Shown piece after piece: positions 33,832-60,355 of a stretch of DNA of 64,000 nt. The translations under genes and the position numbers were made by a program. The notes beneath the pieces are model-generated. The model was not told the DNA's origin. It did not search any database and saw nothing but the letters and a program-made list of their open reading frames with translations. Within the stretch, counting starts at the first letter, position 1; every line of letters begins with the position of its first letter. This DNA is from Antedon mediterranea (lineage: Eukaryota > Echinodermata > Crinoidea > Comatulida > Antedonidae): NCBI RefSeq assembly GCF_964355755.1, contig NC_092679.1:23622432-23686431 (forward strand), in the 5' to 3' direction.

Positions 33832-33903
33832 AGTTCTTCCAATGCTGTCAAATCAGCAAATGCATTGGCTGGCAATGTAACTATTTGGTTACCGCTCAAA
33901 CGC
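33832..33903 (-). CDS. LRR exon (24 residues, phase 2-2)
   Basis: 72-nt minus-strand exon between acceptor TTCTTTCTTTAAAG and donor GTGAGT. It encodes RLSGNQIVTLPANAFADLTA and then LEEL, fitting LxxLxLxxNxIxxLPxxxFxxLxx once joined to neighbours in phase 2. It is the last intact LRR exon before the 7TM exon at 17030, whose phase it matches. Confidence 0.85.
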
Positions 33904-35440
33904 CTTTAAAGAAAGAATACAAACGTAGAATACAATTGTACAAATTACTACAACAAATTACTTATTTCATTATATTATTTCCGCTGAACGACACGAAATC
34001 ACAAAAAAACAGTTTTATTTTATGGTGTTTTTTAATGTGTTTGTTATTATTGACCGTTTTTTTATGATGTTTTATGACGTTATTGCTATGCCTAATTAAT
34101 TTCCTACAATGTCATGTTATTTTTATTTTTTTAGTGTTGAAACATTGTCGTCATTGACGTTTTAAAGTAAGATGATCCCCAAATCGTACTATTGTTGTGA
34201 CGTTTATACGTGATGGCTAAGCATAAAACTATATTAAAGTAGACATGTTCGTAACATTTACTTATCCTGAAATCAAAAACGTCTATAACCTTTGACCTGG
34301 TACATCATGCTATATCAGAGCTATCAGACTTTATAATGACCTAATGTTAAAGGATAGGAGACAATTGGTGGTCTGGGACTGTGTCTCAAGTAAACTGGAA
34401 CTAAATTTCCAAAAACTTTATTTGTGTACGAAGGGGAAAGTTATAATTTGTAATCTGAAAACATAATATGACTTAATAGACCAGTAGCCCAGAGGGGTCA
34501 ACCTAGCTGGAAAGTTAACCAATATTTCTATGCATGTGGCAATTATCTACTATCTATCAATGTATGCAAATGACAGTCTGGCGCAAAGTTTACATTGTAA
34601 AGGGTAAAAAATGATCAAGATCAGCTGAAAAGTTAACCCCATGAAATCTTTTGCAAATTGTTTGCCATAGAGCAAAGTGTAATGAGTGACTATTTCCAGA
34701 CAATTTTAGTGGTTGGGGTGCCTGTCAGACCTCCATTTCAGGATGGCCAACATTGAGCTAGATCAGCTTAAAAGTTAACCCTCTAAAACTGGTGGGAAAA
34801 ATGTTCAATAAACTCATAACTATCATGAATGACCATTGCCAGACATTTTAAGTGGTAGATTGTGCCCGCCAGACTAGAACTAGAATCGTGTGAACGCAAG
34901 TAGTAATTCTTTGATCATGGCCATTAATCGCCACGTTCTTAATGTGTCAAGAATGCACATACAATGGAATGCCTTGTTGCATTGACTTTATATATTTATA
35001 TGTTTTTGTTCTATGAGCTCTTAGATTAAGATTTTTTTTTTCTCTTTTGCTATGAATATAATTATTATGTCACCATGATATTCCGAAAAAAAAGTTAATG
35101 AAAGATGAATGAATGAATGATACAGATCTTTAATTATATTTCTAATTGATAGTCACTTCGTTACTAAATAGTATACATAATTAGAGTTTAAAATTGTGTT
35201 TCTATGAACAGCATTTATCGATGTGCAAATTAAGTCAGAAGTCATAATGCAGGTTTTGTAGTAATTTTCACTCAAAATGTCTCGTGATTTCCAAAATTGA
35301 AGACATTGTGTGTTATCCATACCACTAAGTGCTTGGTGTTTGTAAGTCTTTCTGCTTTAGGTTAATGATATAGATGTAGGGTAAGCTGGTGTGAACCATC
35401 TCTTCATTCCAGTTGAGAATCATTGCTTCGGTCTTAAGCT

Positions 35441-36155
35441 CTGTCTACATTACTTATTATTTATTTAATTTCAATCTTTCTACATAACAAAAAAAGACAT
35501 ATAAGTATAACAGCAGAGTAGCGGAAAAGCAAAAGTAATAAAACTGTCATCTTGTGATGTGCTTGACCAGCCCCTGTCAACTAGGATGATACAATAAAGC
35601 CGAGATTTAACAAATTTAGAAACGTACATAGACAAATATGCTATAATAAAATGTTAATAAAAGTGTTCTAAAAATACAATTGCTGATAAGATTGTATAAA
35701 AGTTAAAAAGTTAAAAATTCTGATTGTATAAAAGTTAAAAAGTTAAAAATTCAGAGTAGGTACAATCTAAAAAAAAATCATGTACATTTTCAAAACTTTT
35801 GGTTTATAAAAATATGAAAAGTTAGAAATCTATAAAATGTTGCTTTAAACTGTGTTTAAACTTAAAAAACGACTCTTCAATAAGATTATTTCTGATCGTA
35901 GCACCAAGTTCTGAAAACATTTTAGGAAACCGTACTATCCCTGAGTATTTAAAAGCATCAGTACGAGCTCTACCATGATGAAAGGTGAGTATATCTAGGT
36001 GTCGGTTATTAACTATCAAACTTTATGTGACAAAAAAATGTGATGTGCCCATATATGGAAATGATGTCATATCACTACCATATTTGGGAATATCACTATT
36101 ATATTTGGGCACATTACACTTTTTGTCAAACTAGTTTGATTGTGTAGACAGAGCT
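35441..36155. mobile_element. MITE related to 10041-10198, interrupted by a LINE tail
   Basis: The ends AAGCTCTGTCTACA and TGTGTAGACAGAGCTTT match the MITE at 10041. The middle, about 35460-36016, is a minus-strand LINE C-terminus: IVNNRHLDILTFHHGRARTD, FPKMFSELGATIRNN, SFFKFKHSLKQHF. After the LINE the MITE resumes with CAAACTTTATGTGAC. Confidence 0.65.
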
Positions 36156-36659
36156 TTAGTAAGGTACATATTGATGTCTATAATGTGTAGCTCATCAGAT
36201 GACTGAGCTGGACTGAGCTGAACTGAGCTGAACTGAACTGCTGGGCATAGCCTATCTCACATTAAGTGCATAATCCACTTTTGTGTTCTATTAGTATTAA
36301 TTAGTGGCTTTATTTGAAATTTTATACAGTACTTGTAGCTCCTGAACGTCTGCGATATTATATGATTATTTTCTGTCAGTGTCGTAAAGGAACAGGTAGA
36401 GAGTATATTGGCTGCAAGAATTTGTGTATTGTGAGTATGGTAGAGTTGTTTGAAGAACGCAGGAAAGCCTATTGTTGTGATGATTTTTATGATTTTGGGT
36501 TGCGGGTGATAACAAAGTATTTTGGCTACAGCTGGTTTGGGAGAAACGGCATAGAAATATCGAAGTCGAAGGATAACATTCATTGCAACCGTTACAAGGG
36601 TAGGCCTATATTCGATGGAGATTCATCTATAGATAATAAAGTTAACGGTCAATAACCTT

Positions 36660-37000
36660 AAAGGCCGGGCACACTGTCTGGCACGAAGAACAGTTTGCTC
36701 ACTAAAAATTTTTCGTAAATTATGATTGTATTCAATCAGAGTGCTTTCAAACAAAATTATACGCCACACACTGACTAATAAATTAGATTGTACATGCGCA
36801 GTGGAATTTTCTTGTCAGCAGTTAGCTCACGTTCGCCGCACAGTGTGAGGAAAAAGAAATGCGTGAAAAATATTAAACATGATAGATATTTTCCTCAACG
36901 GCATCCATGGCCAATCACGAATTTCCCGCCGCACAGTACACTGTGAGCAAAGTTTTATTCGTGCCAGTTGGCTCAGCCGATAGTGTACGCCGAGCTTTAC
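36660..37000. mobile_element. Small inverted-repeat element, GGCACGAA/TTCGTGCC type
   Basis: AAAGGCCGGGCACACTGTC and TGGCACGAA on the left pair imperfectly with TTCGTGCCAGTTGGCTCAGC and GTGTACGCCGAGCTTTA on the right. A related end (AAAGCCCGGCGCACACTAG, TGAGCCAACTGGCACGAGC) lies at 61281-61329. No coding content. Confidence 0.55.
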
Positions 37001-38384
37001 TTCAAACCATTTTGTCACAAAATATCTCATTATAGGCCTATACAAAATATAAATGTATATATTCTGAAACATTTGAACAATAATAACTGTTTCTATGGTC
37101 AGTAGTTATCGAGATATAGCATATCAAGGTCAAAAGAAAAAAAATGGCATTTCCTGTAATTGTCAGAATGTTTTAGAGTAAATATAAATATGTGTATATT
37201 CTCAGTATTTAAAGCCCATAGTTTGCCGAGATATTGAAATGCTACTGAAAAATATCAATTTCAAAGGTCAAAAAATGCAAGAAATAGAATTTCCGGGCAT
37301 TTTTGGCCAAAATGAGAGCAGAGCAAATATAAATTTATATATGTGAACTTTATTCAATCAATCGTACATTTGTTATAATGGTAACCGCAATAAGGTATAA
37401 TATTACAAATAAATATGTTCTGAATATTTTGGTACCAGAAACATGTCAATAAACAAATTAAAATGTCCATATCTTAAAGATCTGGAAATTTTTACTTGTT
37501 TTTCCGGTCGAAAATTCCCAATACTACCAAATCCGTTGAAATCCGTTCTACTCTACTATTTAAGTTAGCTTTAGGCTAATCTATGTATGTTTGGGGTGGT
37601 TGTTCAATACTAGGGAGGCATGTTTTACAAGATAAGCTTTTGAGCTGATCTACTGAACATTAAAAATGTCAATGGCAATGGTCATTTATGATAATATTAG
37701 GGATCATGCTGAACATTTTAAAGCATGTTTTATAAGGTTAAGTCGAATTTTTGGAGGGTGGGGTGTTTCACAGTGTCTGGCGGGCAATTAGAATGTTAAT
37801 TTAAACTGATCTAGCTCATTTGTGGCCCTCCTGAAATGGGGTCTGGCAGGCACACCCACCAGTAAAATTGTATGGCAATGGTCATTCATTACATTTCACT
37901 CTATGTCAAACAATTTGCAAAAGATTTCATTGAGTTAACTTTTCGGTTGATCTAGATCATATTTTTGACCCTAGTACAATGCCCCTCCTAGCCACACCCA
38001 CCAAAATAAACTCGCCAGACTGTCATTTCCATTTGATATGTACGTTGATAATTGCCACATGCATAGAAATTGGTTAACTTTCCAGCTAGGTTGACCCCTC
38101 TGGTCTCCTGCTCTATAATGTCAGGTGTTTCGACACACAAGTAGTTTTAAAAACCCAATTTGTTCAAATCAATCCGCTTGTTTGAGGCGTTTTGATAGGC
38201 TAGTCTATTATACTATAGGAAGCAATCTCATCCGTTTGGCTTTTTTTTTTATCTAGTAAAGTGGTGGTACGGTCCTGCATGGTTAACCAAGCACCACTGT
38301 CTTAAGCCTGTTTTCCAGCCGACGTTATTCGACGACGCTATCATCGTTGATCGTTAAAAGTTAACTTAAGTAATATACACTCAC

Positions 38385-38456
38385 AGTTCTTTCAATGCTA
38401 TCAAATCAGCAAATGCATTGGCTGGCAATGTAACTATTTGGTTATAGCTCAAATAC
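38385..38456 (-). CDS. LRR exon (24 residues, phase 2-2)
   Basis: 72-nt minus-strand exon with acceptor TTCTTTAAAG and donor GTGAGT. It encodes YLSYNQIVTLPANAFADL followed by IALKEL. Open, with all consensus positions present. Confidence 0.85.
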
Positions 38457-38801
38457 CTTTAAAGAAAGAATACAAACGTAGAATACAATTATACATTATT
38501 TTAATGTGATACAAATTTACTACAAAATACACATTTCTACAAAAAAAGTACTTATTATTATATTATTTCCGCTGAACGACACGAAATCACAAAAAAACAG
38601 TTATTTTAATAATGTTTTTTTATTTTCATGACTGTTTCGGTATTGTTATGCCTATTAATTACCTACACAATGGTATGTTATGTTTTTTTAAGTTTTTGAA
38701 ACAGTAAAGAAAAGTGGTACGGCCCTGCATGCACTGTCTTAAGCCTGTTTTCTCGACGCTATTATCGTTTAGTTGTAAAAGTTAACTTAAGTAATACTTA
38801 C

Positions 38802-38873
38802 AAAAATGTCAATGCTGTCAAATCAGCAAATGCATTGTCTGGCAATGTAACTATTTGGTTAAAACCCAATTTC
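38802..38873 (-). CDS. LRR exon (24 residues, phase 2-2)
   Basis: 72-nt minus-strand exon with donor GTAAGT rather than the GTGAGT of its neighbours. It encodes KLGFNQIVTLPDNAFADL followed by TALTFL. Its intron unit is shortened. Confidence 0.8.
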
Positions 38874-39220
38874 CTTTAAATAAAAAGTACAAACGTAGAA
38901 TACAATTATACATTATATTAATGTGATAAATATTTACTACAAAATACAAATTACTACAAAAAAGTACTTACTTCATTATATTATTTCCGCTGAACGACAC
39001 AAAATCACAGAAAAACAGTTATTTTATGGTGTTTTTTAAGGTATCTCTGTGTTATTATTTGACCGATTTTTATGACTGTTTCCTTATTTTTATGCCTAAT
39101 TATTTTCCTACAATATCATGTTGTTTTTATTTTTTTAGTGTTTGAAACATTGTCGGCATTGACGTTTTAAAGTAAGATGATCAAAAAATCGTCCTATTGT
39201 TGCGACGTCTATGTGGACTG

Positions 39221-42200
39221 CACCCGATTCTGTAGCTGTTAGTACATTCAACGTGGAAGACTATTGACAGTCTACCAGAGACCTATCTGACTGTATTAAG
39301 TACTTTTAATACACGATATCGCTGTCATTAGGTTCCTATCTGGAGACAATTTGTAACGTTATAGCTATATTCAATATAAAATCCACTCGGCAACCAGAAT
39401 AGTATAGTAGCACAGGTTATGGTATTGCCATGCAAGAAAGGCCTAGGCCTAGTCAATTATTGTACGAATTACGTAATTAGTTTAGTAGCTCATCTACCTT
39501 TTTAGCAGGGCATAATGAATATCGTAGCTAGGCTAGGCCTACTAGCGTGAAATCAACCAATTATTTGGGTGGTATGAGGGGGGTGGGTAGGAAGTTAAGT
39601 ACGAGTTGGCATGGGTACGAGTCGACCAGGGTACACCCACTAGCCCCACTACTAGAGCATAGGCTATAGTCCTGCGAGAATGGGAAATCTGGCCTAGATA
39701 GGCATAGGCCTAAATTAGGTACGCCGCAAAAAAGCTATCCTATGAGCATAAAAAGGCCTCGTAGTAGAGCCAAAGGTGTTAGCCCACTACTACGGATCAC
39801 TAATTAATCTATCTAGGCCCGGGCTAGCTAGCCTAGGCCTATAGAGTTAATTTTAAATTAAGTAGGCCTAGGCCTGGTTGGTTGGTTGCTGGGCTTCAGT
39901 AATTTCGGTCGCATTTTCGGCCTACTTTTCAGGACATGTGAGAGGTGAGGTAGGTTAGCCCAGCTAGGCTAACCTAACCTGTAAGTAGTATTCTAGCCCA
40001 TCCATGATGCCTGATGGGTACGAGTTGGCAGCCATTGGTACGAGTTGACCCGTATTCTAGCTAGGGTGTCCTGGTCAACCCGTACCCAAACCAACCCGTA
40101 TGTAATATAAATATACTTTTAATAGCATTAAACATGGGTACAGGCGCGCCAGCCCATGATGAGTACGAGCCAGCCCATGATGTGCAGGAGTGGGCCAACA
40201 TTTTGGGTATGAGTAAACCAAAATTTGGGTACGTTGTTGGCATGGGTACGTGTTGACCTGTATCCTTCTAGCTAATCTTACTAGGCCTAGAGTAGAGTAG
40301 GTCTATGCTATACCCAGACCGGTTACAATAATGGTCTATTCATTCTGTTTATACTGTAGCTTTATTGATAGCTGGGTTGGGGCGGCTTTTTCTCATTCTA
40401 AAACAGATTTCCTTATCATAATAAAATAATATATAAATTTAAATGTAATATTGTATACATAATATTAGTAATTGCCATTGCATTTATTATAATTATATAT
40501 TATACGGTTACCCCTTAATTATACTATAGTATAATTTTCTTGTTATATTTTACAATATTTTCTTCATAGTTCAACAATTTTTTCTTTCACAGGAAAAATT
40601 ATCATACTGAATCATCACACACCAAGTCTCATAAAGCTCTACTGTATTTCTCCAAGGTACTCCAGCTACATGGTATTGCCTTGAGGCTAAACTACAGTAA
40701 ACGATATACTGGCACTACCATCATTCCTGGCCCGTCAACCTGGACCACATTACAGTATGGTCCAACACATAAGTACAGTAGTCGTACTACTGATTCAAAA
40801 TAGTGAATTACACCCTGTGGTCAAGGCTTTATTTGCTCTTATGCTTATTTCCTCCAAATACAGAGTACGTAGGGCTTTCAATTTGCTTTTATACCTGTTA
40901 ATTTAAAAATCGTTTATGCCTATTGTTGCATAAAGTATCAAATTTAGACTGTAAATACTGGGATGATCACCCTAAATTTTCTTTTTCAATTAACAATTTT
41001 ATATTTCACAGCTGAAAAATGCACTAAAGCATCATATAGAGATTTTTTATTCATAACTGTTAAATTGCATCCCAATACATGGTACCTATATAAAAATACA
41101 AAGGCGGCCAACACAGATAGTTTGATATATACAGTACTCTCTTATAAATAGATGTATCTCTCCAAACTACTCCAACTACCTAATTAGCATACTATTGTAC
41201 ACTTTGTAGACAAGAAATAAATTGTATCCACCTAGAGGACTTATGGTAGTACAGTCGATCGTCCTGTCACTGGCCCGGTCAACATAATCTACGCCTAGAT
41301 TATTACAGTAATTAAAGTACATTATTACAGAGATTTTTTTTTTTTTGCAGATCAAAGTTATGTGTATAGAAAGCAGTACTCGTATTAAAAACTAAGCAGG
41401 TTATATTCTTGTACGCAAACTGGCAGGATGTTTTGAATATTTTTTGTTGTTGAAATGATGGAATCCTAACGTCATTTTCCACGAGCTGGAGAGTGACAAA
41501 GACATATTACGACCCTTTTATTTAAATTTATTTGGATAGACCTCCATGTAAATTCATTAAAGGCTATATGATTGTTTTATATTTTAATATGTGATAGTAG
41601 ATAATCATTGTGCATAATGAAGACTATGAATCTAATATTTACTTGCATTCTCATCTTTGTTTATGTAACTATTTTGTCTAATTGCATTGGATTTTTGTAT
41701 AGGCCAATGGCATTAATGTTTTTCTCAAAGCAAATTAGCCTAATAATGCCATATTTAGACACATAATTCATTGATTTCTGATATTCTGTACTTGTGTATG
41801 CATTACTAAAATAGTAGTTATTTTATTACTTTTATAATGTATAAACATTTATTCATTTTTTTTTTACATTTTTTAATTTAAAAATTATTAAAATACCTAT
41901 CTACCTTTCTGTTATTGTTACTATTATAATATTTTTTGAGGCAGATTGATTTCAATAAAAAAAAATTAAAACAATTAATTTGACTTATACTGTACTATGT
42001 TAGTTCAGGAGATGAAGTGTGTGTGGGCAGAATCTGGTGTGTTGGAGGTTGGTGATGCGAGGTGTATAGTTGTCACTTTAAGACCTAAATTAGATGTTTT
42101 CTGAAGAAAAGAAGTAAGAGGATAGGCTTTCAAACAACTTCAAGAAGATTCACACAGAAATAATTACTTCCCAATAAAATAGTATGTAACTGTGTATATT

Positions 42201-45200
42201 ACAGTACATTGAATAAACTCGAGCGGAAAAATAACACACATAAAAAAATATTAATTTTCTTGTCCAAAAACGCCCTCTCTAGTTTTCTATTAATTTATTA
42301 ATAATTATTATTAATTAATGAGCAATTATAAACATATTTTTAACATTTAATGCTTGAAGCTGATTCTACTCCTAACAAAGTTTCTTACCTCCAAATTTCA
42401 TCAACGTATTCAAAGCACTTCAATAAATATCACATTCAACATTAAAAATTAGGGTTATGATAGAATTTTGCTTAAAAACATATACAAAAAACATTGATAA
42501 AAAATATTTTTCGTATTCAAAAACATTTGATACTTGGTATAAATGTTCAATATAGGTTGCTCCATCCATATTGCAAAAAATAAATAAATATCGAGCCATA
42601 TCACTGATTTTTTAAATTTACGTTTTTACAAAATGTACACTTATGAAAGATCGTACAACTCCAACGCATTTTTTAAACCTAATAACGATTTTGAAAAAAC
42701 AACCAAAAAAAAAACGTTCATGAATGAAATTTTTTTTCTGTGAATAGAGCAACCTATATTGAACATATAAAAAAAGTTTCAAATGTTTTTAAATTCGAAA
42801 AGTATTTTTTATCGATGTTTTTTGTATACTGTTTTTAAGCAAAATTCTATCATAACCCTAATTTTTAATGTTCAATGTGATATTTATTGAAGTGCTTTGA
42901 ATACGTTGATGAAATTTGGAGGTAAGAAACTTTGTTAGGAGTAGAATCAGCTTTAAGCATTAAATGTTAAAAATATGTTTATAATTGCTCATTAATTAAT
43001 AATAATTATTAATAAATTAATAGAAAACTAGAGAGGGCGCTTTTCGACAAGAAAATGAATGTTTTTTTATGTGTGTTATTTTTCCGCTCGAGTTTATTCA
43101 ATGTACTGTAATATACACTGTTACATACTATTTTATTGGGAAGTAATTATTTCTGTGTGAATCTTCTTGAAGTTGTTTGAAAGCCTATCCTCTTACTTCT
43201 TTTCTTCAGAAAACATCTAATTTAGGTCTTAAAGTGACAACTATACACCTCGCATCACCAACCTCCAACACACCAGATTCTGCCCACACACACTTCATCT
43301 CCTGAACTAACACAGTACAGTATAAGTCAAATTAATTGTTTTAATTTTTTTTTATTGAAATCAATCTGCCTCAAAAAATATTATAATAGTAACAATAACA
43401 GAAAGGTAGATAGGTATTTTAATAATTTTTAAATTAAAAAATGTAAAAAAAAAATGAATAAATGTTTATACATTATAAAAGTAATAAAATAACTACTATT
43501 TTAGTAATGCATACACAAGTACAGAATATCAGAAATCAATGAATTATGTGTCTAAATATGGCATTATTAGGCTAATTTGCTTTGAGAAAAACATTAATGC
43601 CATTGGCCTATACAAAAATCCAATGCAATTAGACAAAATAGTTACATAAACAATTAATACTAATATTGGTAGGCATAAAATAAAAGTGTATATAAACTTT
43701 CCTTAAATATAAACAGTATAGGGCCTTACCAATTTATTTAATACATAATATATAAACTATATTACCACAAAATAAATATAAATGAATTTATAAGGACATG
43801 ATGATTATCAAAAATAGTCAATATAATTTAATATTATGTTCATATTATTATAATTATTATATCATAAAGATTTTCAAAAACATAGTTTGATAACTTTTAG
43901 TTTATGTTAGATATCAGACCTTTAATATTTGGAAATAACCTATAATAACTATAAAACATTCTTCTTTTGAACGCAGTATGCATATGTAGATACAGTACAC
44001 ATATATTGTAAGAACACAATTTCAATAATTTCTTTGTTAGTTATCAACCTAGGGGTTAAGTTATTAGGAAAACATTGGTTTATTTTTTATATAAATTATA
44101 TGTACAGAAATTCGTTCTTCTAGCCTCAGATCATTCCTGAAGTTAGACATAAATCACCCAAATTAGTATTAAGTAATGGATATTAGATGAAGTACAGTAC
44201 AAACATTTTTCAGGAGGATACTTTATGTTAAAAGGTGATAATTAGTTTAAATTTTACCCCGATGAAATTTATTCAATTACCAGGTTGAAGTATGGTGGAA
44301 ACACTACTATATGGCAGAATAAATGTACTCATGTAGAACACAGTCAGTTCTACCAAGGTTAGAGGTGTGCCACAATTTGAGATAAGTGGAAACATGACTT
44401 TTTCAATAGTAAACTCATTACCAGCATTATAAATACAATTTTAAAAAGATGAGAATGCAAGTAAATATTAGATTCATAGTCTTCATTATGCACAATGATT
44501 ATCTACTATCACATATTAAAATATAAAACAATCATATAGCCTTTAATGAATTTACATGGAGGTCTATCCAAATAAATTTAAATAAAAGGGTCGTAATATG
44601 TCTTTGTCACTCTCCAGCTCGTGGAAAATGACGTTAGGATTCCATCATTTCAACAACAAAAAATATTCAAAACATCCTGCCAGTTTGCGTACAAGAATAT
44701 AACCTGCTTAGTTTTTAATACGAGTACTGCTTTCTATACACATAACTTTGACTTCTGCAAAAAAAAAAAAAATCTCTGTAATAATGTACTTTAATTACTG
44801 TAATAATCTAGGCGTAGATTATGTTGACCGGGCCAGTGACAGGACGATCGACTGTACTACCATAAGTCCTCTAGGTGGATACAATTTATTTCTTGTCTAC
44901 AAAGTGTACAGTAGTATGCTAATTAGGTAGTTGGAGTAGTTTGGAGAGATACATCTATTTATAAGAGAGTACTGTATATATCAAACTATCTGTGTTGGCC
45001 GCCTTTGTATTTTTATATAGGTACCATGTATTGGGATGCAATTTAACAGTTATGAATAAAAAATCTCTATATGATGCTTTAGTGCATTTTTCAGCTGTGA
45101 AATATAAAATTGTTAATTGAAAAAGAAAATTTAGGGTGATCATCCCAGTATTTACAGTCTAAATTTGATACTTTATGCAACAATAGGCATAAACGATTTT

Positions 45201-46907: not shown

Positions 46908-47271
46908 GTGGACTGGTACTGAGTCTCAAGTAAACTGGAACTACTTTTCCAAAAACTTTATTTGTGTACGAGTGGGAAAGTTATAATTTGTAATCTGAAA
47001 ACATAATTTGACTTAATGTCAGGTGTTTTGATACACGAGTAGTTTTAAAAACCCAATTTGTTCAAATCAATCCGCTTGTTTTGATAGGCTAGTCTATTAT
47101 ACTATATGGAGCAATTTCACCCGTTTGGCTATTTTTTATCCAGTAAAGTGGTACGGCCCTGCATTGTTAACTATGCACCACTGTCTTAAGCCTGTTTTCC
47201 AGCCGACGTTCTTCGACGACGCTATCATCGTTGATCGTTAAAAGTTAACATAAGTACTTTAATATACTCAC

Positions 47272-47343
47272 AGTGTCTTCAATGCTGTCAAATCAGCAAA
47301 TGCATAGGCTGACAATGTAACTATTTGGTTATAGACCAAATCC
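47272..47343 (-). CDS. LRR exon (24 residues, phase 2-2)
   Basis: 72-nt minus-strand exon with acceptor TTCTTTAAAG and donor GTGAGT. It encodes DLVYNQIVTLSAYAFADL followed by TALKTL; proline and asparagine of the common core are replaced by S and Y. Open. Confidence 0.85.
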
Positions 47344-47556
47344 CTTTAAAGAAAGAATGCAAAAGTAAAAATTATAAATTAGGGTTGGCACCAGGATCAT
47401 CCCGACAAAGGGTGGGGCTGATATGCAACAAGCGAAGCGAGCATCATCACTTCGTTGGTGCTAGAGTCACAGTTGGGGGTCCAGGGATTATGACCTTCAG
47501 CGTATTTAATTTGAGGCCATTTTAATGAATAAAATAAGTTAACTTTATATACTCAC

Positions 47557-47628
47557 AGATATTTCAATGCTGTCAAATGAGCAAATGCATTGGCTGGCAA
47601 TGTAACTATTTGGTTATGGCTCAAATCC
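47557..47628 (-). CDS. LRR exon (24 residues, phase 2-2)
   Basis: 72-nt minus-strand exon encoding DLSHNQIVTLPANAFAHL followed by TALKYL, with acceptor TTCTTTAAAG and donor GTGAGT. Open. Confidence 0.85.
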
Positions 47629-47801
47629 CTTTAAAGAAAGAATACAAACGTAAAAATGACAAATTATCGGTGGTAATAGGATCGTCTCGACAGGGGGGAT
47701 ATACATGGGAAAGCGAGCATCGCTTGGCTGGTACATGTCAAAGGGCCTGTGGGACCAAGGGGCCGGTTTAATAATTAAAAAGGGTTGTTTAATATACTCA
47801 C

Positions 47802-47873
47802 AGTTCTTCCAATGTTGTCAAATCAGCAAATACATTGGCTGGCAATGTAACTATTTGGTTATGGTTCAAATCC
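47802..47873 (-). CDS. LRR exon (24 residues, phase 2-2)
   Basis: 72-nt minus-strand exon encoding DLNHNQIVTLPANVFADL followed by TTLEEL. The acceptor reads CTATAAAG and the donor GTGAGT. Open. Confidence 0.85.
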
Positions 47874-49375: not shown

Positions 49376-49615
49376 CTAGTATATTTCATTGAATTTCTGC
49401 ATTATTGTTGACAATTTATTTTCAACTATTAATTGATGTGTTGATTGTGGCATTACAGCAATAGCTTGTCTTCTGTGATTGTTCATCCATTTTAAAGTGT
49501 CATAGTAAGAAACGTTCAAATAAATATTGTGAATGTTGCTACCACATTTTGTATTGATTTCTTCACCATTTTCCACTACTTGCTCATATTGTTCATTCAA
49601 GTGTGTTAATACCTA
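49376..49615 (-). other. Exon-like ORF inside TTAA element
   Basis: A strong minus-strand acceptor (TCTTTCTTTTAATAG) precedes an open frame that starts VLTHLNEQYEQVVENGEEIN and ends IMQKFNEIY at a stop. The family is not recognised. It could be the last exon of a captured gene or a small element-encoded protein. The acceptor and uninterrupted frame are the only support. Confidence 0.3.
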
Positions 49616-50499
49616 TTAAAAGAAAGACATTATTTATTAAAATATGTACATAAAAAGTTTAATTGTGTGAATGTTGGTTTGAACGTTATTGCTTTGGAAG
49701 AATTTTCAACATAACGGTACTAAGTACTGTAAAGTACACATTCCAAAAAATATTCAACTTAGATTATTTGGTCATTTTCTCTAAAATAATTACATTATTG
49801 GATGTACAGTATAGGCCTAGTTACAATGTTCACAAATTTATATTAGCATTAAAATCTGATTAATCATGAAGGAAAAACCAAGCACCATAATCTCTCCTGG
49901 CCCTGGTGGTGACCTTATTTTCTATTTTTGGCAGCCATTCACAAGTTTTCGCTTTTTGAGTTTCGCTGCTCTTATGTATAATTTTTTTAAATCACAAACT
50001 CTACATAGAAAAAAAAATTAAATGTTTTAAAATGAATGAAAAGTGATATGAATAATGATAAATTAAAGACTATTATTAATATTATAATATTATACTAAAA
50101 ATAAGACGAGTTGGTGGTGTCGAAATTCACACAAGTCACAATAAAACCACGGAGGTATAAAATATTTTATTTTTATACCTCCATGCTAAAACCTTATTCC
50201 TTACTCCATGCTCACAGATGAATGTTATAGGCCTAATCCTATTTAAAGCTAGGTTGGCAATAACTATTAATAAGGCTTACAAGTTGTATCTATTAGTATT
50301 AGCTAGGCCTGCTACTCACTCAGGGTGAACCCTCACTCAGGCCTACAACTAGGCCTAGTACTACTACCACTACTAGACTAGCTACTACTCTAGGCCTAGC
50401 CAATAGATAGGGGATAGTACACTAGATAGCCAGTACAGCTGTAATGGGCTAGCTAGGCTTCCTATACTAACTAACAAAGCTGCACCATAGAAACTACAG

Positions 50500-50657
50500 T
50501 TCTTACTTACCAATCTGTTAGGGCCTAGCCATAGTCTTTTCTTCAAGTAGGAGTTGTTTTTTGTTGTTGTTAAACTACAGAACTTTCCCACATCGTCGTC
50601 TCGCCATATCACGTCGTATTTTTTTTCTGATGACCTAGAGGTCACATACACGCACAA
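50500..50657 (-). other. Exon-like ORF with donor site inside TTAA element
   Basis: An ATG at 50657 opens MCVYVTSRSSEKKYDVIWRD, then DVGKFCSLTTTKNNSYLKKR and LWLGPNRL, meeting a consensus donor GTAAGTAAG near 50510. It could splice to the acceptor above 49615. The function is unknown and expression is unproven. Confidence 0.28.
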
Positions 50658-51491
50658 GAATCATACAATATGCATAATTCATAAGCTAATTCAGGTCAAG
50701 GGTTAAATTTAACCGGAAGCCAGCTGGCTGCCAGCCAACCGACTTCCGGTTGACTATTTTTTACTTTAAATTACGATTTTCTAAGGTAAATAATTTTTTT
50801 TTTGATCCAATTTTTTTTTCAAAGTGAATAACTTTTATGTATCATTAAAATGGCCTTAAAAAAAAATTTTTTTTTTGTTCAGGGGGACAATACATCTTTA
50901 ATGTTATGACTGTTTTGTTATTGTTATGCCTAAGTAATTACCTACAATGTCATGTTATTTATATTTTTTAGTGTTTGAAACATCGTCGGCATTTAAATTT
51001 TAAAGTAAGATGATCAAAAAATCAATCAATTCTTCGATTTCAATTTCTATTTAGATAATCCCAAAATCGTGCTATCTTAAAGTAGACAAAAACGTCTATA
51101 ACCTTTGACTTGGTCCACCATGCCACAACTGAAAAAGTCTCAAGTGAACTGAAACTACTTTTCCAAAAACTTTATTTGTGTACGAGTGGGGAAGTTATAA
51201 TTTGTAATCTGAAAACATAATTTGACTTAATGTCAGGTGTTTCGATACACGATAGTTTTAAAACTCAATTTGTTCAAATCAATCCGCTTGTTTGAAGCGT
51301 TTTGATAGGCTATTCTATTATACTATAGGGAGCAATCTCACCCGTTAGGCTATTTTTTATCCCAGTAAAGTGGTAAGGCCCTGCATGGTTAACTAAGCAC
51401 CACTGTCTAAGCCTGTTTTCCATCCAACGTTGTTCGACGACGCTATCATCGTTGATCGTTAAAAGTTAAAATAAGTCGCTCGCAAACTCGC

Positions 51492-51558
51492 AAATTTCAA
51501 TGTAAAATCAGCAAATGCATTGGCTGGCAAAGTACCTATTTGGTTATTTTACTAATAC
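51492..51558 (-). pseudogene. Degenerate LRR exon
   Basis: LRR exon relic with 5 nt deleted (frame broken), a GC donor in place of GT, and AACG at the former acceptor AG. It still encodes LPANAFADF-like sequence. Close copy of the relic at 58303-58370. Confidence 0.8.
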
Positions 51559-51747
51559 CGTTAAAAAAAGAATGGAACGAGTGGAACCAGGATCATCCCG
51601 ACAAGGGGGATATGTAACAAGCGAAGCGAGCATGGTCACTTAGTTGATACTAGGGCCACAGTTGAGGGTCCTGGGGAAGAATGACGTTCAGAGTATTTAA
51701 TTTGAGGCCATTTTAATGAATAAAATAAGTTAATTTAATATACTCAC

Positions 51748-51819
51748 AGTTCTTCCAAGGCTGTCAAATCAGCAAATGCATTGGCTGGCAATGTAACTAT
51801 TTGGTTATGGCCCAAATCC
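51748..51819 (-). CDS. LRR exon (24 residues, phase 2-2)
   Basis: 72-nt minus-strand exon encoding DLGHNQIVTLPANAFADL followed by TALEEL. Acceptor TTTTTTAAAG and donor GTGAGT. It is identical to the exon at 58539-58610, reflecting duplication of the whole unit. Confidence 0.85.
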
Positions 51820-51968
51820 CTTTAAAAAAAGAATGCAAACGTAGAATACAATTGTACATTATATTAATGTGATAAATATTTACTAAAAAATACAAATTAC
51901 TACAACAACTTACTTATTTCATTATATTATTATTATTATTATTATATTATTATAGTACAAATCCCTTT

Positions 51969-52203
51969 AAAGTTGTATTGTCCCCCAAAACATGAAAAAT
52001 AAAGATGAAAAAAATCAAATTTTGAATAAACCATTTTGTAGTTATAATAAAGTTATATAAAAAAATATTGATTTCGCTTATAAAAAATCAAAATAAGTTT
52101 ATCATTTTTTCGAACTCATAAGCTCAGAAATTCCTAAATAACGATGGTTAGCTAACAGCTCATAAATATGCATGATATGTTAATGAGTATCTAAACAGGG
52201 GGA
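51969..52203. mobile_element. Truncated copy of the AGTTGTATTGTCCCCC element
   Basis: After TTAA the first about 230 bp match 48053-48305 (GTCCCCCAAAACATG, TTGAATA[AG]ACCATTTTG, GCATGATATGTTAATGAGTA). Past ACAGGGGGA the sequence changes to a minisatellite and no right terminal repeat is found. Confidence 0.75.
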
Positions 52204-52700
52204 GACGGGTTGGTGAATTTTGTCCAAGATGGGGAAATTCCTGTCCAGAATGGGGAAATATTTTGTCCAGAATAAGAACAATAGCGATAGGTGGCGCTAT
52301 AATCGTGTCCAAGATGGGGAAGCTGTCCAATATAGAGAAATCAGATTTGTCCAAAATGGGGAAATTTCTGTCCAAGATGGGGAAGTGGTGGCGCTATATC
52401 GTGTCCAAAATGGGGAAATTTCTGTCCAAGATGGGGAAGTGGTGGCGCTATATCGTGTCCAAAATGGGGAAATTTCTGTCCAGGATGGGGAAATGCTGTG
52501 TCAAAAATAGGGAAGCTGTCCAATATAGAGAAATCCGATTTGTCCAGAATGGGGAAATTTCTGTCCAGAATGGGGAAGTGCTGTGTCCAAGATGGGGAAG
52601 CTGTCCAATATAGAGAAAGACGATTTGTCCAAAATGGAGAAATTTCTGTCCAGAATGGGGAAGTGCTGTGTCCAAAATAGGGAAGCTCCACAATATAGAG
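52204..52700. repeat. GTCCA-AAATGGGGAAA minisatellite with nested periodicity
   Basis: Repeats of GTCCAGAATGGGGAA[AG] combine with two spacer types, TTTCT and GTGGTGGCGCTATATC, and a CTGTCCAATATAGAGAAA block, giving composite units of about 50-100 bp. Several frames on both strands stay open only because the unit lacks stops. I do not consider any of these ORFs a gene. Confidence 0.9.
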
Positions 52701-52763
52701 AAGGCAAAACATTAAAACAACATAAGAAACTTTTTTTTGTTTTAAAACTTTAATTAAGTTCAC

Positions 52764-53585
52764 ACTTCTAATCTGAAAACACTACAAAATGTACATAATA
52801 ATAACAGTACTATGTTACACTTTACAAGTACATTTGAAGTGGAAAGGTGTTCTATTAATTAAATAATTAACACCGTTATTAGCTAATTTTAAGTATAATA
52901 AACATAGTGAGGGATGTGGTTCCAATTTACTATTGAAGTAAATTTTCACTGAATCTATACATTTATCTGAAGTTAAAAACTACAGTATATTATATTAAAT
53001 TCCAAGCATAAAAACCACAAAAAAAAATTAGTACCGGCACCGCCATTATTATACCACATCAGTAAGAGTACAGAATATTTATTAATATATTTAATACATG
53101 TTGTCACTTCTTTTCCTTCTTTCTATCCTTTTTATTTTTTCTTTTTTGTTTTTGTTTTTTTTTCGACCACAGGCCGCGGGTATTAATCTATCGTCACATG
53201 CAGTAATTCCACATGGAATTTCGACCACATGATGGAATCCTTGAGTTATTATAGTAACTCAATGGTTTAAAATCAAACGTACACGCCGAATCATTAATTT
53301 CCAGCTATAAACAAAGTGATATCATTGACAAATCGTGCAATATTTGGCCTAATTTTAACTAATTAACTAATTCTCACTTTACAATAGTATACGAGTGTTT
53401 GCATATTTGTAACATAGTATTAATTAGTGCTTTAAATGCGTTATTTCCTACTCCAAATAGGCATAGTTTAGTGTTAATAATTATGTTGATATTAAAATAT
53501 GATTAACAGCCAGTGCTTCGCATTTTCTGTAAGGTTTATGCTCAATTAGATTTGTTTTTTGGGTTAAATTTCTCTCAAAATCTTT
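52764..53585. other. AT-rich non-coding stretch
   Basis: No coding motif or repeat structure recognised apart from a T-rich run at 53110-53165. Confidence 0.4.
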
Positions 53586-54392
53586 GTGTCTATACAAATG
53601 TTATTGGTGAGCAACTATTCTGTCAATGTGTATTCTTTTAAATTTACCAGGGAGTGAATTGCTGTGCTGATTTATTATGGCTACTGATGTTCTTCCCATT
53701 TTCTTGAAAACTTTCCCATTCTGCCGATCATCTCTAATTCCATCAAGAAAAATGTTCATATGGATCATTTCATGAGCCATAGTATTAAGCAATTCACTCG
53801 TCGAATCTGCAGCATTTTTACTATTAATATTTATTATTGATGAGAAACCAATTTTATTCTTATGCAATAATTGAAGTGTTTCTCCGTAAACATTACCTAA
53901 AGGTACAAGAAACACATGATCCTCGGCCTTGGGTAACTTTCCCAAGTATACAATAGTGTTTATGTAGTTGTAGAGCGAATGTATGTCCTTAACCATCTGT
54001 TGGTCTTGCTTGTGGGTCTCTCTCTTCTTGCTTCGGTTCGTAACCGCTCTTGTTGATCATATATTTTCTTTTTATGAGTACATCTTTCGCACATGGCATG
54101 TGTTATGCATTCCTTATGATAAGGCTTGTGGCATGTAAAGCAGTTGATGACTTGTGGAGTGATGGGTGGGTTGCAGCAGTTTGTCAGAGGTATTGCGGAC
54201 ATCCTTGATGCAGGGGCATTGTGGCAGTTATCAATTTCTAAATATCCACGCAAAATCTCCCTTCTCAAATGCTTCAACAAGCTTTCGCCTAACAACCCTC
54301 TCGTCTTCTTCAAATCGTAGTGTTGATGGATCTTTTCCTGCACATAGTGCAGCAGCAAATGCAAATGCTATACAAAAATGGCCACAAGTGTT
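53586..54392 (-). pseudogene. Remnant with cysteine-protease-like end, zinc finger and SprT-like metalloprotease
   Basis: Three minus-strand pieces lie in order. First, about 54386-54240 reads CGHFCIAFAFAAALCAGKDP and RRKLVEAFEKGDF, resembling the end of a C48/Ulp1-like domain of transposon-linked proteins, where [DN]xCG holds the catalytic cysteine. Second, after a frameshift, a zinc finger: NCCNPP, CFTCHKPYHKECITHAMCERC. Third, in another frame from 53996, MVKDIHSLYNYINTIVYLGK leads to TMAHEMIHMNIFLDG, a SprT-like domain with the HExxH zinc motif (HEMIH), ending at 53601. Frameshifts near 54240 and 54000 make it a pseudogene as read. A LINE abuts its upstream end. It may come from a large DNA transposon; this is inference. 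Confidence 0.6.
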
Positions 54393-57142
54393 ACTTTTAT
54401 TTTATTTTTATTTTATTCATTTCGGCAATAAACATAAAATAATAATTACAAAAAAAAAACAAAAACATAGAAATATATATATATATATATATATATGAAA
54501 AACAAGACACGAGGCCGAGGAAAGACAAAAGCATTAAACAAAACGCTGTCACCGGTAAGGTGTGTCTCTCCAACACATAAATAACAAATAACAAGAATAT
54601 ATACAAATATAGTAGACATATCAATTCATTTAAAAATTTAAAAAGTTTCTCTCCGACATTTAAAATATAGCTTTAGAGATAATTTGAAATTAATAAAAGA
54701 ACCATTAACAAAAATATCGCGAATCTCATTGGGTATGGAATTTGAAGTTCTAGTGAATCTGGTCGGGATGCAAAATTTTGACATATCATTACTGGAGCGA
54801 AGATGCTTGAAAGTGAGAGTATCATGACGATTATTAACTATGAGTAAATTATAAATAATAGATCTTTGATGATAAAGTAAAACATTGCAAACAAATAGAA
54901 CAGTATAACAATCTCTAATAGCGATTGTGGATGGGATATCAAGAGTGTCTAGTCTCCCCTCATATGACTGTTCCTGACGACGTTGATGTAAAATCAACCG
55001 GGTGGCCCGTCTCTGGATTTGCTCAATCATTTGAATTTGACATATGCGATAAGGGTACCACACCTCGCAACAGTACTGTATATGAGGGAGGACTAGACAC
55101 TGGTATAATTTTAAAAGAACGGGTGTAGAACAACCACCAGCAATTGCTCTAACAAGACCCAGTGTTCTATTACACTTATTTACAACCGCATGGACTTGTT
55201 TAGACCATGACAAATCATCGGATATGTACACACCAAGAATTTTCAGATGTTTAACATGTGCAATAACCTGATCGTTAAGTATATAGTCATTAGAAGATGG
55301 AGCTCTCCTTCTATCGATATACAAGATGTTACATTTAGTAGGGTTTAAAATAAGTTTGTTTAAAATTGACCATTCAGAGATTTTGTTAATGTCTCTCTGT
55401 AAGGAAATAAAATCACAATAAGAATAACCTGCTTTACTAATAAATGTATCGTCAGCATATTGGTACGGTTTATTTTCCAAGTGAAGATTTAAGTCATTCA
55501 CGTAAATGTTGAACAATAATGGCCCCAAGACTGACCCCTGGGGGACACCTGACTTGAATAAACACCATTCAGATTGGACACCATTAAAAATTACTCTTTG
55601 CTTACGACCAGATAAGAAAGAGTTAATCCATTTTAATAATACACCGCCAACACCATACGTTTTTGAAAGCTTATTCACCAGAATGTCATGCGAGATGGAA
55701 TCAAATGCCCTACTGTAATCAAGAGCCACGACATCAATCCGTGGTGCCCCATTATCTAAAGCCTTAACCCAGGATGTTGTAGCCTCAGCCAAGACTGAGG
55801 AACAAGATTTTCTTGGAGTAAAACCATATTGGCCATCAAACATGAGTCCAAATTCGTTCAGATGAAGACGGAGTTCATCGGTGACAATACTCTCGAGCAC
55901 CTTTGAGAACAAAGATGTCAGTGCAATTGGTCTATAGTTGCATAGGTTCGTCTTGCTGAGCTTCTTATGGACTGGTGCGATGTTTGCACATTTCCATGCC
56001 GAAGGAAGTTCACCACTTTCCAAACTGAAGTTAAAAACATCGGCAAGTAATGGCGATAAACCTTTGGAACAGAGTTTTAACATTTGAGATGTAATGCCAT
56101 CGGGCCCGGCAGCTTTGCCCACAGAGAGTTTCATGATCTTCCTGAAAACAACAATGGGATGGACAATAATGTTTGCTAGAGCAGTAACCTCTAGTCTGGG
56201 TGATGTAGATTCATCTGTTAATGGGTCACTCTGGGTAAAATAAGATTCGAATAGTGAATTAAACGCGTTCGCAATTGTCCTTGGATCGGAGCACATTGTA
56301 TCATTAATCACAAATGAAGAACAATTTGCAGACTTCCGTTTAGACTGGACATAGGCCTACTGCCAGAATTGCTTCATATTATCAGCTTTTCCCATTAATT
56401 CATCAATATATTTACTGTGGGAACGATTTGTGACATATCTTATTTTATTACGGAGAATTTCCTCAAGTTCCAAAGCAGAGTTAGGTTTAGATGGTGGTCT
56501 ATAAAATACACCGCAAAGCCATCTACCATCATTGACACTGAATTCTGCCCAGACACATTCAACATTTTCCATTGAAGGATGGGTAACTTGGATAGGATGT
56601 AATGGCCAGAAGCACACCACCACCGTCTTTATGAGCACCTCTGTCCTTGCGAAAAATGACATGTTGGTTTGATATAACACCATCACTGAGAACTGTATCG
56701 GTGAGCCAGGTTTCAGTTATACCGATGATTGATAGGTGAGTATTCTGTCCCAGGTAAGTTTGTAGACATCTTAGTTTGTTTTTTAGGCTCCTGGCGTTAA
56801 TTAGTACACTACAAATGCTTTCTGATGTTGCAGTTGTATTAAGGGAATCTTTAGAAATATCACTGTTACTTGTCTCAGATTCAATTAAAGACTCATCGGT
56901 GGAGAAGTACGAGTCATTTAGTTTAGGGAGAGCACAATGGTAACAGATCCAGTTATGATTTCTATCCTTAAAAGATTTGCGAAAATGATTTGGGGAAATC
57001 TGGACACAGCTAGCGTGAAAGATTAAAGAGCATTCACAACATACGATTTTCTGACGGTTTCGAAAAATGTTCTTGAAACATGATCCACATGTAACAATAG
57101 CATTTCCATTAGCAACTCGGGGACAGGTAGGCCTGGTAAAAA
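54393..57142 (-). mobile_element. Non-LTR retrotransposon with PHD-like finger, internal deletion and intact-looking RT
   Basis: On the minus strand it opens at about 57130 with a C4HC3 finger (CGSCFKNIF, IVCCECSLIFHASC, WICYHC). The endonuclease start follows (SVLINARSLKNKL, GITETWL, GGGVLL). A frameshift near 56600 and a deletion after VFYRPPSKP remove most of the nuclease. The RT frame runs from 56686 to 54638 with one in-frame TAG at about 56359. RT motifs are GPDGITSQMLK, NYRPIALTSLFSKVLE, YGFTPRKSC, DYSRAFDSISHDIL, GVPQGSVLGPLLFNIYVNDL and catalytic YADDTFIS. The 3' end is an AAATAAAAT-rich tail at 54393-54415 preceded by an (AT)n run. It belongs to the CR1/Jockey group in a different lineage from the 19661 element. 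Confidence 0.85.
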
Positions 57143-57454
57143 AGTAAAAACTTTATATGTGTACGAGTGGGAAAGTTATAATTTGTAATCTGAAAACATA
57201 ATTTGACTTAATGTCAGATGTTTTAAAAACTCAATTTGTTCAAATCAATCCGCTTGTTTGAGGCGTTTTGATAGGCTAGTCTATTATACTATAGGGAGCA
57301 ATATCATCCGTTTGGCTATTTTTTATCCCAGTAAAGTGGTACGGCCCTGCATGATTAACTAAGCACCACTGTCTTAAGCCTGTTTTTCAGCCAACGTTAT
57401 TCGACGACGCTATCATCGTTGATCGTTAAAAGTTAACTTAAGTAATATACTCAC

Positions 57455-57526
57455 AGTTCTTTCAATGCTGTCAAATCAGCAAATGCATTGGCTGGCAATG
57501 TAACTATTTGGTTAAAGCTCAAATTC
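57455..57526 (-). CDS. LRR exon (24 residues, phase 2-2)
   Basis: 72-nt minus-strand exon encoding NLSFNQIVTLPANAFADL followed by TALKEL, with acceptor CTATAAAG and donor GTGAGT. Open. Confidence 0.85.
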
Positions 57527-58302
57527 CTTTATAGATAGAATGCAATTACAATTAATTATACATCATTATAATGTGATATATATTTACTACAAAATAAAAA
57601 TTACTACAAAAATTTACCTAATTATATTTTCGCTGAACGACACGAAATCAAAGAAAAACAGTTATTTTGTAGAGTTTTATCTAATATATCTCTGTTATTA
57701 TTTAATGTTATGACCGTTTTGTTATTGTTATGCCTAAGTAATTACCTACAATGTCATGTTATTTATATTTTTTAGTGTTTGAAACATCGTCGGCATTTAA
57801 ATTTTAAAGTAAGATGATCAAAAAATCAATCAATTTTTCGATTTCAATTTCTATTTAGATGATCCCAAAATCGTGCTATCTTAAAGTAGACAAAAACGTC
57901 TATAACCTTTGACTTGGTCCACCATGCATGCCACAACTGAAAAAGTCTCAAGTGAACTGAAACTACTTTTCCAAAAACTTTATTTGTGTACGAGTGGGGA
58001 AGTTATAATTTGTAATCTGAAAACATAATTTGACTTATTGTCAGGTGTTTCGATACACGAGTAGTTTTAAAACCCAATTTGTTCAAATCAATCCGCTTGT
58101 TTGAAGCGTTTTGATAGGCTATTCTATTATACTATAGGGAGCAATCTCACCCGTTAGGCTATTTTTTATCCCAGTAAAGTGGTAAGGCCCTGCATGGTTA
58201 ACTAAGCACCACTGTCTTAAGCCTGTTTTCCATCCAACGTTGTTCGACGACGCTATCATCGTTGATCGTTAAAAGTTAAAATAAGTACAGTAATAAACTC
58301 AC

Positions 58303-58370
58303 AAACTTTCAATGTCAAATCAGCAAATGCATTGGCTGGCAAAGTACCTATTTGGTTATTGTACTAATAC
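58303..58370 (-). pseudogene. Degenerate LRR exon
   Basis: 68-nt relic: 4 nt deleted, acceptor AG changed to CG, TAG at the first consensus leucine. The core LPANAFADL is retained. It belongs to the same inactive subfamily as 51492-51558. Confidence 0.8.
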
Positions 58371-58538
58371 CGTTAAAAAAAGAATGGAAACGAGTGGAAC
58401 CAAGATCATCCCGACAAGGGGGATATGTAACAAGCGAAGCGAGCATGGTCACTTAGTTGATACTAGGGCCACAGTTGAGGGTCCTGGGGAAGAATGACGT
58501 TCAGAGTATTTAATTTGAGGCCATTGTAATATACTCAC

Positions 58539-58610
58539 AGTTCTTCCAAGGCTGTCAAATCAGCAAATGCATTGGCTGGCAATGTAACTATTTGGTTATG
58601 GCCCAAATCC
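58539..58610 (-). CDS. LRR exon (24 residues, phase 2-2)
   Basis: 72-nt minus-strand exon identical in sequence to 51748-51819 (DLGHNQIVTLPANAFADL, TALEEL), with normal acceptor and GTGAGT donor. Confidence 0.85.
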
Positions 58611-59363
58611 CTTTAAAAAAAGAATGCAAACGTAGAATACAACTGTACATTATATTAATGTGATAAATATTTACTAAAAAATACAAATTACTACAACAAC
58701 TTACTTATTTCATTATATTATTTCCGCTGAACGACACGAAATCACAAAAAAAACTGTTTATTTTATGTTTTTTTTAATGTATCTGTGTGTTATTATTTGA
58801 CCAATGTTTATGACTGTTTTGTTATTGTTATGCCTAATTAATTACCTACAATGTTTTGTTATTTTTATTTGTTTAGTGTTGAAACATCGTCTGCATTGAC
58901 GTTTTAAAGTAAGATGATCCCAAAATCGTCCTATTATTATTATTATTATTATTATTTATTGCCAAAAACCAGATACAAACAAACAAAAACACAGACTATT
59001 GTTGTGACGTCTATACGTGATGGCTAAGCATAACACTATATTAAAGTAGACATGTTCGTAACATTTTCTTATCTTGAAAACAAAAACGTCTATAACATTT
59101 GGCCTAGTACACCATGCTATAACTGACCAATCAGGCTTTCTAATTACCTAGTGTTAAAGGATAGGAGACAATTTGTGGTCTGGTACTGAGTCTCAAGTAA
59201 ACTGGAACTACTTATCCAAAAAATGTATTTGTGTACAAGTGAGAAAGTTATAATTTGTAATCTGAAAACATAATTTGACTTAATCTCAGGTGTTTCGATA
59301 CACGAGTAGGTGGGATTAAAGGGCCGTTTTAATAATTAAAAAAGGGTTATTTAAAATACTCAC

Positions 59364-59435
59364 CGTATTTTCAATGCTGTTAAATCAACAAAATGCATTG
59401 CTGACAATGTAACAATTTGGTTATCGTACTAATAT
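59364..59435 (-). pseudogene. Degenerate LRR exon
   Basis: 72 nt and a normal GTGAGT donor, encoding NQIVTLSAMHFVDLTAL, but the first consensus leucine is TAG and the acceptor dinucleotide is AC rather than AG. An insertion and a deletion that compensate each other alter three residues. Use of the internal TTAG as acceptor would break the phase-2 pattern. Confidence 0.75.
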
Positions 59436-59621
59436 CGTTAAAAAAGAATGCAAAACTAACAATTAGCAGTGGTACCAGGTTCTTCCCGACAAGGGGGATA
59501 TGCAACAAGCGAAGCGAACATCATCACTTTGTTGGTACTAAGGCCCGGGATAGAATGACCTTCAGCGTATTTAATTTGAGGCAATTTTAATGAATAAAAT
59601 AAGTTAACCTAATATACTCAC

Positions 59622-59693
59622 AGATATGTCAATGCTGACAAATCAGCAAATGCACTGGCTGGCAATGTATTTATTTGGTTATGGCTCAAATCT
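59622..59693 (-). CDS. LRR exon (24 residues, phase 2-2)
   Basis: 72-nt minus-strand exon encoding DLSHNQINTLPASAFADL followed by SALTYL. Acceptor TTTTTTAAAG, donor GTGAGT. First intact LRR exon downstream of the cap exon at 60804 in transcript order. Confidence 0.85.
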
Positions 59694-60283: not shown

Positions 60284-60355
60284 AGATTTTCCAATGCTGT
60301 CAGATCAGCAAACGCATTCGCTGACAATGTAACAATTTATTTATCGTACAAATAT
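60284..60355 (-). pseudogene. Degenerate LRR exon
   Basis: 72-nt relic with a GC donor, no AG acceptor (AACG) and a TAA where the glutamine of the NQI core should be. The remaining LSANAFADLTALE is well preserved. Confidence 0.75.

Follow-up and report, generated by a model that had tools for sequence, protein, structure and literature searches.

Amplified leucine-rich repeat exons with variation at exposed positions in a predicted relaxin receptor-like gene of the crinoid Antedon mediterranea

Fungal NLRs with WD, ANK, or TPR repeats (e.g., the HET proteins of Podospora) are described as combining high repeat identity, changes in repeat number, concerted evolution, and diversifying selection at binding positions (PMC4986451). 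The same evolutionary features appear to recur in A1, a minus-strand gene in a 64,000-nucleotide (nt) window of the genome of the crinoid Antedon mediterranea (assembly GCF_964355755.1, contig NC_092679.1, positions 23,622,432 to 23,686,431; the contig is C10 below, and positions given without a contig are those of the window). A1 is predicted to encode a leucine-rich repeat (LRR)-containing G protein-coupled receptor (LGR), in which an array of near-identical exons, each encoding one LRR, is joined to a seven-transmembrane (7TM) exon. Fungal NLRs are the closest evolutionary match, but they are intracellular, have other repeat types, and carry their repeats in a continuous exon, whereas A1 would encode an animal membrane GPCR in which each LRR has an exon of its own and the introns are copied along. 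The zinc-finger array of PRDM9 is likewise reported to consist of coding repeats that turn over in copy number and are diverse at the residues making contact (PMC3890296). A1 resembles PRDM9 in both respects, but PRDM9 is a DNA-binding protein. Its array is a minisatellite inside one exon, unlike that of A1. In the variable lymphocyte receptors (VLRs) of lamprey and hagfish, as in the model of A1, an LRRNT is followed by several 24-residue LRRV modules that form a variable concave surface (PMC3900441); VLRs are assembled somatically from germline modules, whereas the modules of A1 are exons in place and nothing points to somatic assembly. As in A1, the variable residues of highly variable plant NLRs occupy the x positions of LxxLxLxx, which lie on the concave sheet (PMC8226289). 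Plant NLRs, unlike the predicted A1 product, are intracellular. The repeats within one plant NLR are not known to be near-identical copies.

Among LGRs, A1 resembles type C (RXFP1, RXFP2, and GRL101) in its LRR ectodomain, short hinge, 7TM domain nearest to that of RXFP1, and similar number and length of LRRs; RXFP1 is tabulated with 10 LRRs of 24 to 25 residues (PMC4561518). It differs in its near-identical LRR-exon array, with variation confined to exposed positions, and in LDLa modules, of which type C LGRs have at least one and GRL101 (type C2) has multiple copies: none was detected in A1 by two sets of cysteine patterns along the transcribed strand of C10 (23706431 to 23638000) or by a Pfam scan of the joined protein, from which a divergent or distant exon could escape. 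In the SudRes2 region of Biomphalaria sudanica, which is associated with schistosome resistance, GRL101-like genes are clustered and expanded (PMC12297450). Unlike A1, those genes have LDL and C-type lectin domains (PMC12297450), and repeat-exon turnover is not known from them. In the part of the open-licence PMC literature covered, we found no published report of such an array in an LGR.

An earlier note on the window had claimed ten intact 72-nt phase 2-2 LRR exons, two of them identical, whose introns are repeated along with them, and all of this was confirmed. Each exon is stop free, lies on the minus strand, and has an AG acceptor and a GT donor: exons 1 (LDLSHN...; 59622 to 59693), 2 (LDLGHN...; 58539 to 58610), 3 (LNLSFN...; 57455 to 57526), 4 (LDLGHN...; 51748 to 51819), 5 (LDLNHN...; 47802 to 47873), 6 (LDLSHN...; 47557 to 47628), 7 (LDLVYN...; 47272 to 47343), 8 (LKLGFN...; 38802 to 38873), 9 (LYLSYN...; 38385 to 38456), and 10 (LRLSGN...; 33832 to 33903). 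Exons 2 and 4 show no difference. Intron blocks are duplicated at 95.5% identity (58722 to 57701 against 51931 to 50897; alignment length, 1,044) and at 95.1% identity (57709 to 57443 against 48056 to 47790). Four decayed copies, overlooked earlier and excluded from our exon counts, are also present on the minus strand, with cores at 60292 to 60342, 59372 to 59422, 58307 to 58357, and 51495 to 51545, the last being a block duplicate of the third. In all four, the acceptor AG has become CG and there is an in-frame stop; the first also has a GC donor. All four carry the same acceptor change and several are interleaved with live exons, so a single dead exon was probably copied together with its live neighbors, i.e., duplication probably works on DNA blocks rather than exon by exon. 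The intron between exons 3 and 4 contains a retroelement-like insertion (53601 to 57152, minus strand) with one reading frame that matches reverse transcriptase (PF00078; E value, 1.4e-30) and, weakly, SprT-like (24.0 bits; cutoff, 25.6).

The array forms part of a gene model, predicted from sequence, of 15 exons with GT-AG boundaries at 14 of 14 introns and a single open reading frame of 723 amino acids, in which an LRR ectodomain is in frame with a rhodopsin-family 7TM domain. The domain order is signal peptide, LRRNT (a cysteine-rich N-terminal cap), 10 near-identical LRRs, two diverged LRRs, hinge, and 7TM. The signal-peptide exon lies 14.8 kb beyond the window (C10:23701195-23701252, equivalent to 78764 to 78821 on the window scale). 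Within the window, all on the minus strand, are the LRRNT exon (60804 to 60945; phase 1 in, phase 2 out), two diverged, unamplified LRR exons of 75 nt (18614 to 18688) and 72 nt (18232 to 18303, the last LRR), and an exon encoding the hinge and 7TM through the stop codon (15926 to 17030; PF00001; E value, 5.6e-25). These four window exons and the sister genes elsewhere in the genome were missed in the earlier note. A Pfam scan of the joined protein gave LRR_8 (E value, 1.4e-79) and 7tm_1 (E value, 6.4e-25). The 7TM exon is most like the relaxin receptor RXFP1 (E value, 2.4e-37; 132 bits), ahead of the thyrotropin receptor TSHR (105 bits; E value, 4.3e-29) and LGR4 (58 bits), in a ranking among solved structures. 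A1 is likely, judged from sequence, to belong to a large family of LRR-containing GPCRs with a relaxin receptor-like 7TM domain.

A genome search with the 7TM protein returned 108 matches, 56 of them with an E value of ≤1e-100, on contigs C1 to C10. Two LRR-exon patterns, each of 35 places with up to 3 mismatches allowed and with overlapping hit sets, matched 290 and 218 times; chance is excluded because the reversed-pattern controls matched 0 times. Dozens of arrays, on at least six contigs, show the pattern. A2, the neighboring gene on the same strand, has its own LRRNT exon, 13 array exons, 75- and 72-nt exons, and 7TM exon; further arrays are B on C10 (6 intact exons), D on C7, and E on C8 (11 exons). 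The LRRNT exon is conserved in A2, B, and D, and the two diverged LRR exons have counterparts in A2, B, D, and E. Alignment of A1 with the C7 gene upstream of the array covers the signal-peptide and LRRNT exons alone and likewise reveals no LDLa module. The 7TM dN/dS is 0.16 to 0.19 for A1, A2, and B against D and 0.08 for D against E. A second 7TM exon copy in the window (1768 to 2923, minus strand; 85 to 87% identical to A1) is split into two reading frames by a frameshift; its first part is one of the 56 strong matches, and no LRR array was found beside it. Upstream of another 7TM copy, the 10 kb read (C10:13201001-13211000) contained four LRR-exon relics and 0 intact exons. An intron of A2 (C10:23588342-23592162) carries an array of ∼3.8 kb with a period of about 24 bp, as seen from stepped self-matches.

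With the repeat numbered from L1 to residue 24, the strand positions L22-x23-x24-L1-x2-L3-x4-x5 make up LxxLxLxx, the x residues of which are described as surface exposed on the concave sheet (PMC8226289). The clustering of differences reported in the earlier note, which located them without drawing out their meaning, was borne out: residues 2, 4, 5, 23, and 24 rank 1 of 42,504 five-codon sets in A1, with nonsynonymous divergence of 0.420 at the five sites and 0.051 in the rest of the exon. The corresponding values are 0.489 and 0.068 for A2 (rank 5), 0.327 and 0.011 for D (rank 24), and 0.385 and 0.027 for E (rank 4); for residues 2, 4, and 5 alone, D reaches 0.482 (rank 1 of 2,024). When the competition is limited to the 15 nonconsensus positions, A1, A2, D, and E rank 1, 2, 11, and 2 of 3,003. 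The ranks are descriptive, rather than P values, because the exons are related by descent. The D set is without exon 3185923, a distinct repeat, and exons 3175613 and 3174858 fell outside the range chosen. Synonymous divergence of the exons is 0.064 in A1, 0.087 in A2, 0.073 in B, 0.004 in D, and 0.053 in E. The differences thus sit on the exposed LxxLxLxx positions, with the rest of the module almost invariant, in A1 and in all four of the other arrays studied, although B shows this most weakly.

The 120 residues that occupy positions 2, 4, and 5 in 40 unique exons include 105 from the group Y, S, G, D, N, R, W, H, and K and only 3 from the group A, V, L, I, M, C, and P, against 37.5% expected from random NNY codons (a residue grouping picked after inspection of the data). 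The 59 zero-mismatch C7-type exons (of 290 matches) contain 37 distinct three-residue combinations, and among 46 cluster-unique combinations no association between residues 2, 4, and 5 was found (mutual information against shuffles; P = 0.27, 0.37, and 0.89). The third bases of codons 2 and 4 are constant because the search pattern fixes them, and nothing was concluded from them.

In D, nucleotide diversity (π) is 0.41 at codons 2, 4, and 5, 0.008 at other codons, and 0.016 in the adjacent upstream intron (−50 to −4); it exceeds 0.2 upstream of about −190. Among the 238 within-array exon pairs compared in total, those with a flank divergence of 0.03 to 0.06 (n = 13, 9 from D; mean, 0.049) have a mean divergence of 0.46 at residues 2, 4, and 5 and of 0.013 in the rest of the exon, and all nine pairs with identical flanks are identical throughout, variable patches included. 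In A1, exons 4 and 10 (51748 and 33832) show 5 differences among the 9 hypervariable nt, 1 among the other 57, and 6 among 133 flank positions, and exons 2 and 4 (58539 and 51748) have 0 exon differences and 2 of 149 flank differences; the close pairs tested individually were picked after sorting by flank divergence. Relaxed constraint fails to account for D and the close pairs, and diversifying selection on cassettes with homogenized surroundings fits. Conversion makes a tree of such repeats, and with it tree-based selection models, unreliable, a point made for Prdm9 (PMC3890296).

Of the earlier claim of recent, continuing exon duplication, recent duplication in an LGR-type receptor is supported: besides the A1 blocks, there are identical units on C7 and a C8 pair with different exon numbers. 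Three LRR exons at C7:3190138-3191340 are spaced at exactly 601 bp, two of them with identical flanks. Eight neighboring paralogs on C8 have 9, 11, 7, 8, 4, 9, 12, and 10 pattern-matched exons, with splice sites checked in the 11- and 7-exon genes. Two of these paralogs, with 11 and 7 LRR exons, share 4,405 bp at 99.8% identity, spanning the final four exons of the array, the terminal LRRs, and 7TM, and a further 387 bp upstream at 100% (a stricter comparison gave the 4,405-bp piece only, so that the identity applies to these pieces rather than to the whole unit); beyond the four shared exons, they carry seven and three more array exons. One of this pair may be a pseudogene because it has a TGA within 7TM. 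On C7, by contrast, two near-identical copies (at about 4.06 and 4.18 Mb) each have 4 pattern-matched exons, equally spaced, among the matches listed. These counts compare paralogs in one haploid assembly. Features of repeat receptors under concerted evolution with diversifying selection are found here: near-identical repeats (rest-of-exon divergence, 0.052 in A1, 0.008 in D, and 0.031 in E, against 0.104 between D and A1), repeat numbers that differ between close copies (here paralogs), and concentration of variation at predicted ligand-facing positions.

The explanation that we consider probable, given these sequence patterns, is that the exons of a recognition receptor turn over in concert and that diversifying selection acts on its binding face. 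The ectodomain would be built of interchangeable 24-residue cassettes. Because each consists of a single symmetrical 72-nt exon that brings its splice sites with it, cassettes could be exchanged without breaking the frame, and unequal exchange and gene conversion would add, delete, or swap them. Such exchange would hold the module scaffold nearly uniform inside an array, while selection for new binding specificity would keep the five exposed LxxLxLxx residues diverse. The product would be a curved LRR solenoid of about 12 repeats. Its concave face, where LRR proteins usually bind their ligands, would be a patchwork of variable residues, and the 7TM domain would presumably be responsible for signaling. 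Constitutive splicing of all intact exons is the simplest assumption because about 12 LRRs, the number reached by full inclusion, is normal for a receptor of this type.

Several results weigh against this explanation. Average intron divergence in A1 is about 0.24, so that 0.42 at the five sites is only a ∼1.7-fold excess, and the case for positive selection consequently rests mostly on C7, C8, and the close pairs. In D, the downstream flank is far more diverged than the upstream one (0.070 at +7 to +50 and 0.30 further out). B is the weakest array, with 0.351 at the five sites and 0.114 elsewhere (rank 227 of 42,504 and 61 of 3,003). For the A1, A2, and B arrays, rest-of-exon divergence within a gene is barely below that between genes (0.052 within A1, 0.066 between A1 and A2, and 0.106 within B), and within-gene homogenization is visible only between older subfamilies. 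A stop is present in 9 of the 56 strong 7TM matches, and a 7TM dN/dS of 0.41 to 0.49 among A1, A2, and B indicates that the domain is not strongly constrained. The modest excess in A1 would suit an ordinary LGR hormone receptor whose LRR exons were duplicated by chance and whose exposed residues vary through low constraint, as would one exon per LRR and about 10 to 12 LRRs of 24 residues, which fit a normal RXFP-like ectodomain. We nevertheless regard such a receptor as unlikely: relaxed constraint cannot surpass the neutral rate, as the exposed sites do in D (0.41 against 0.016) and in the close pairs (0.46 against 0.049), hydrophobic residues, Cys, and Pro are nearly missing at residues 2, 4, and 5, and 56 strong 7TM matches do not resemble a hormone receptor family.

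Ten symmetrical exons with near-identical splice sites, any subset of which stays in frame, could also generate many ectodomains per gene by alternative or mutually exclusive splicing in the manner of Dscam or VLRs, but inclusion of every exon already yields a normal LGR size and the splice sites of the array exons fall into no obvious classes, which makes this origin of diversity rather improbable. A germline or somatic diversifier that targets mutation to codons 2, 4, and 5 or copies patches into them, instead of selection, is suggested by a C7 exon pair that differs at 7 of 9 hypervariable nt, 2 of 166 flank positions, and 0 of 57 positions in the rest of the exon, by a C8 pair that differs at 3 of 9 and 1 of 170 flank positions, and by the nearly free combination of the three residues. 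The identical patches in 9 of 9 identical-flank pairs, and in exons 2 and 4 of A1 despite their flank differences, weaken this proposal, and no special mutator is needed for patch-only differences, for which conversion tracts across homogeneous flanks suffice; we give the proposal little credence. Misassembly could account for the near-identical tandem units on C7 and C8, and the 99.8% identical C8 genes could be alleles, but assembly artefact or haplotype duplication is very hard to reconcile with A1 copies that differ by 5 to 25% in their introns and are broken by different insertions, or with a pattern common to dozens of arrays on at least six contigs; as alleles, the C8 pair would mean that array length differs between alleles.

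If concerted turnover with diversifying selection is the correct explanation, an immune, allorecognition, or chemosensory role may be inferred from the family expansion, the diversifying change, and analogy with the snail GRL101-like cluster tied to schistosome resistance; a chemosensory role has been suggested for starfish GRL101 (PMC6267866). A bolder proposal, possible but doubtful at present, is a germline-encoded, VLR-like GPCR recognition system: dozens of LGR genes in which cassette exchange, both inside a gene and from one gene to another, would keep rewriting the concave binding face. Array length and residue combinations would vary between individuals, and the receptors would serve immunity or self/non-self discrimination and signal directly through G proteins. 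If the explanation by turnover with diversifying selection holds, the mode of evolution of fungal NLR repeats and PRDM9 would also shape the ligand-facing surface in a family of animal GPCRs and would represent a third route to hypervariable LRR receptors, alongside lamprey VLRs and plant NLRs. The origin of new specificities would become testable, as each cassette corresponds to one exon, its variable codons have been identified, and any long-read genome allows a count of cassettes. There would also be a concrete reason to seek ligand diversity in expanded LGR clusters of invertebrates, one of which is reported in the schistosome resistance region of a snail (PMC12297450).

Other elements in the window include retroelement reading frames with reverse transcriptase at 20107 to 23351 (plus strand) and 5778 to 7365 (minus strand) and a retroelement reading frame at 29645 to 30250 (plus strand) whose endonuclease match is below threshold. 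Satellites occupy 61809 to 63486 (106 bp × 15.9), 9101 to 9856 (20 bp × 37.8), and 13223 to 13857 (a 75/221-bp array).

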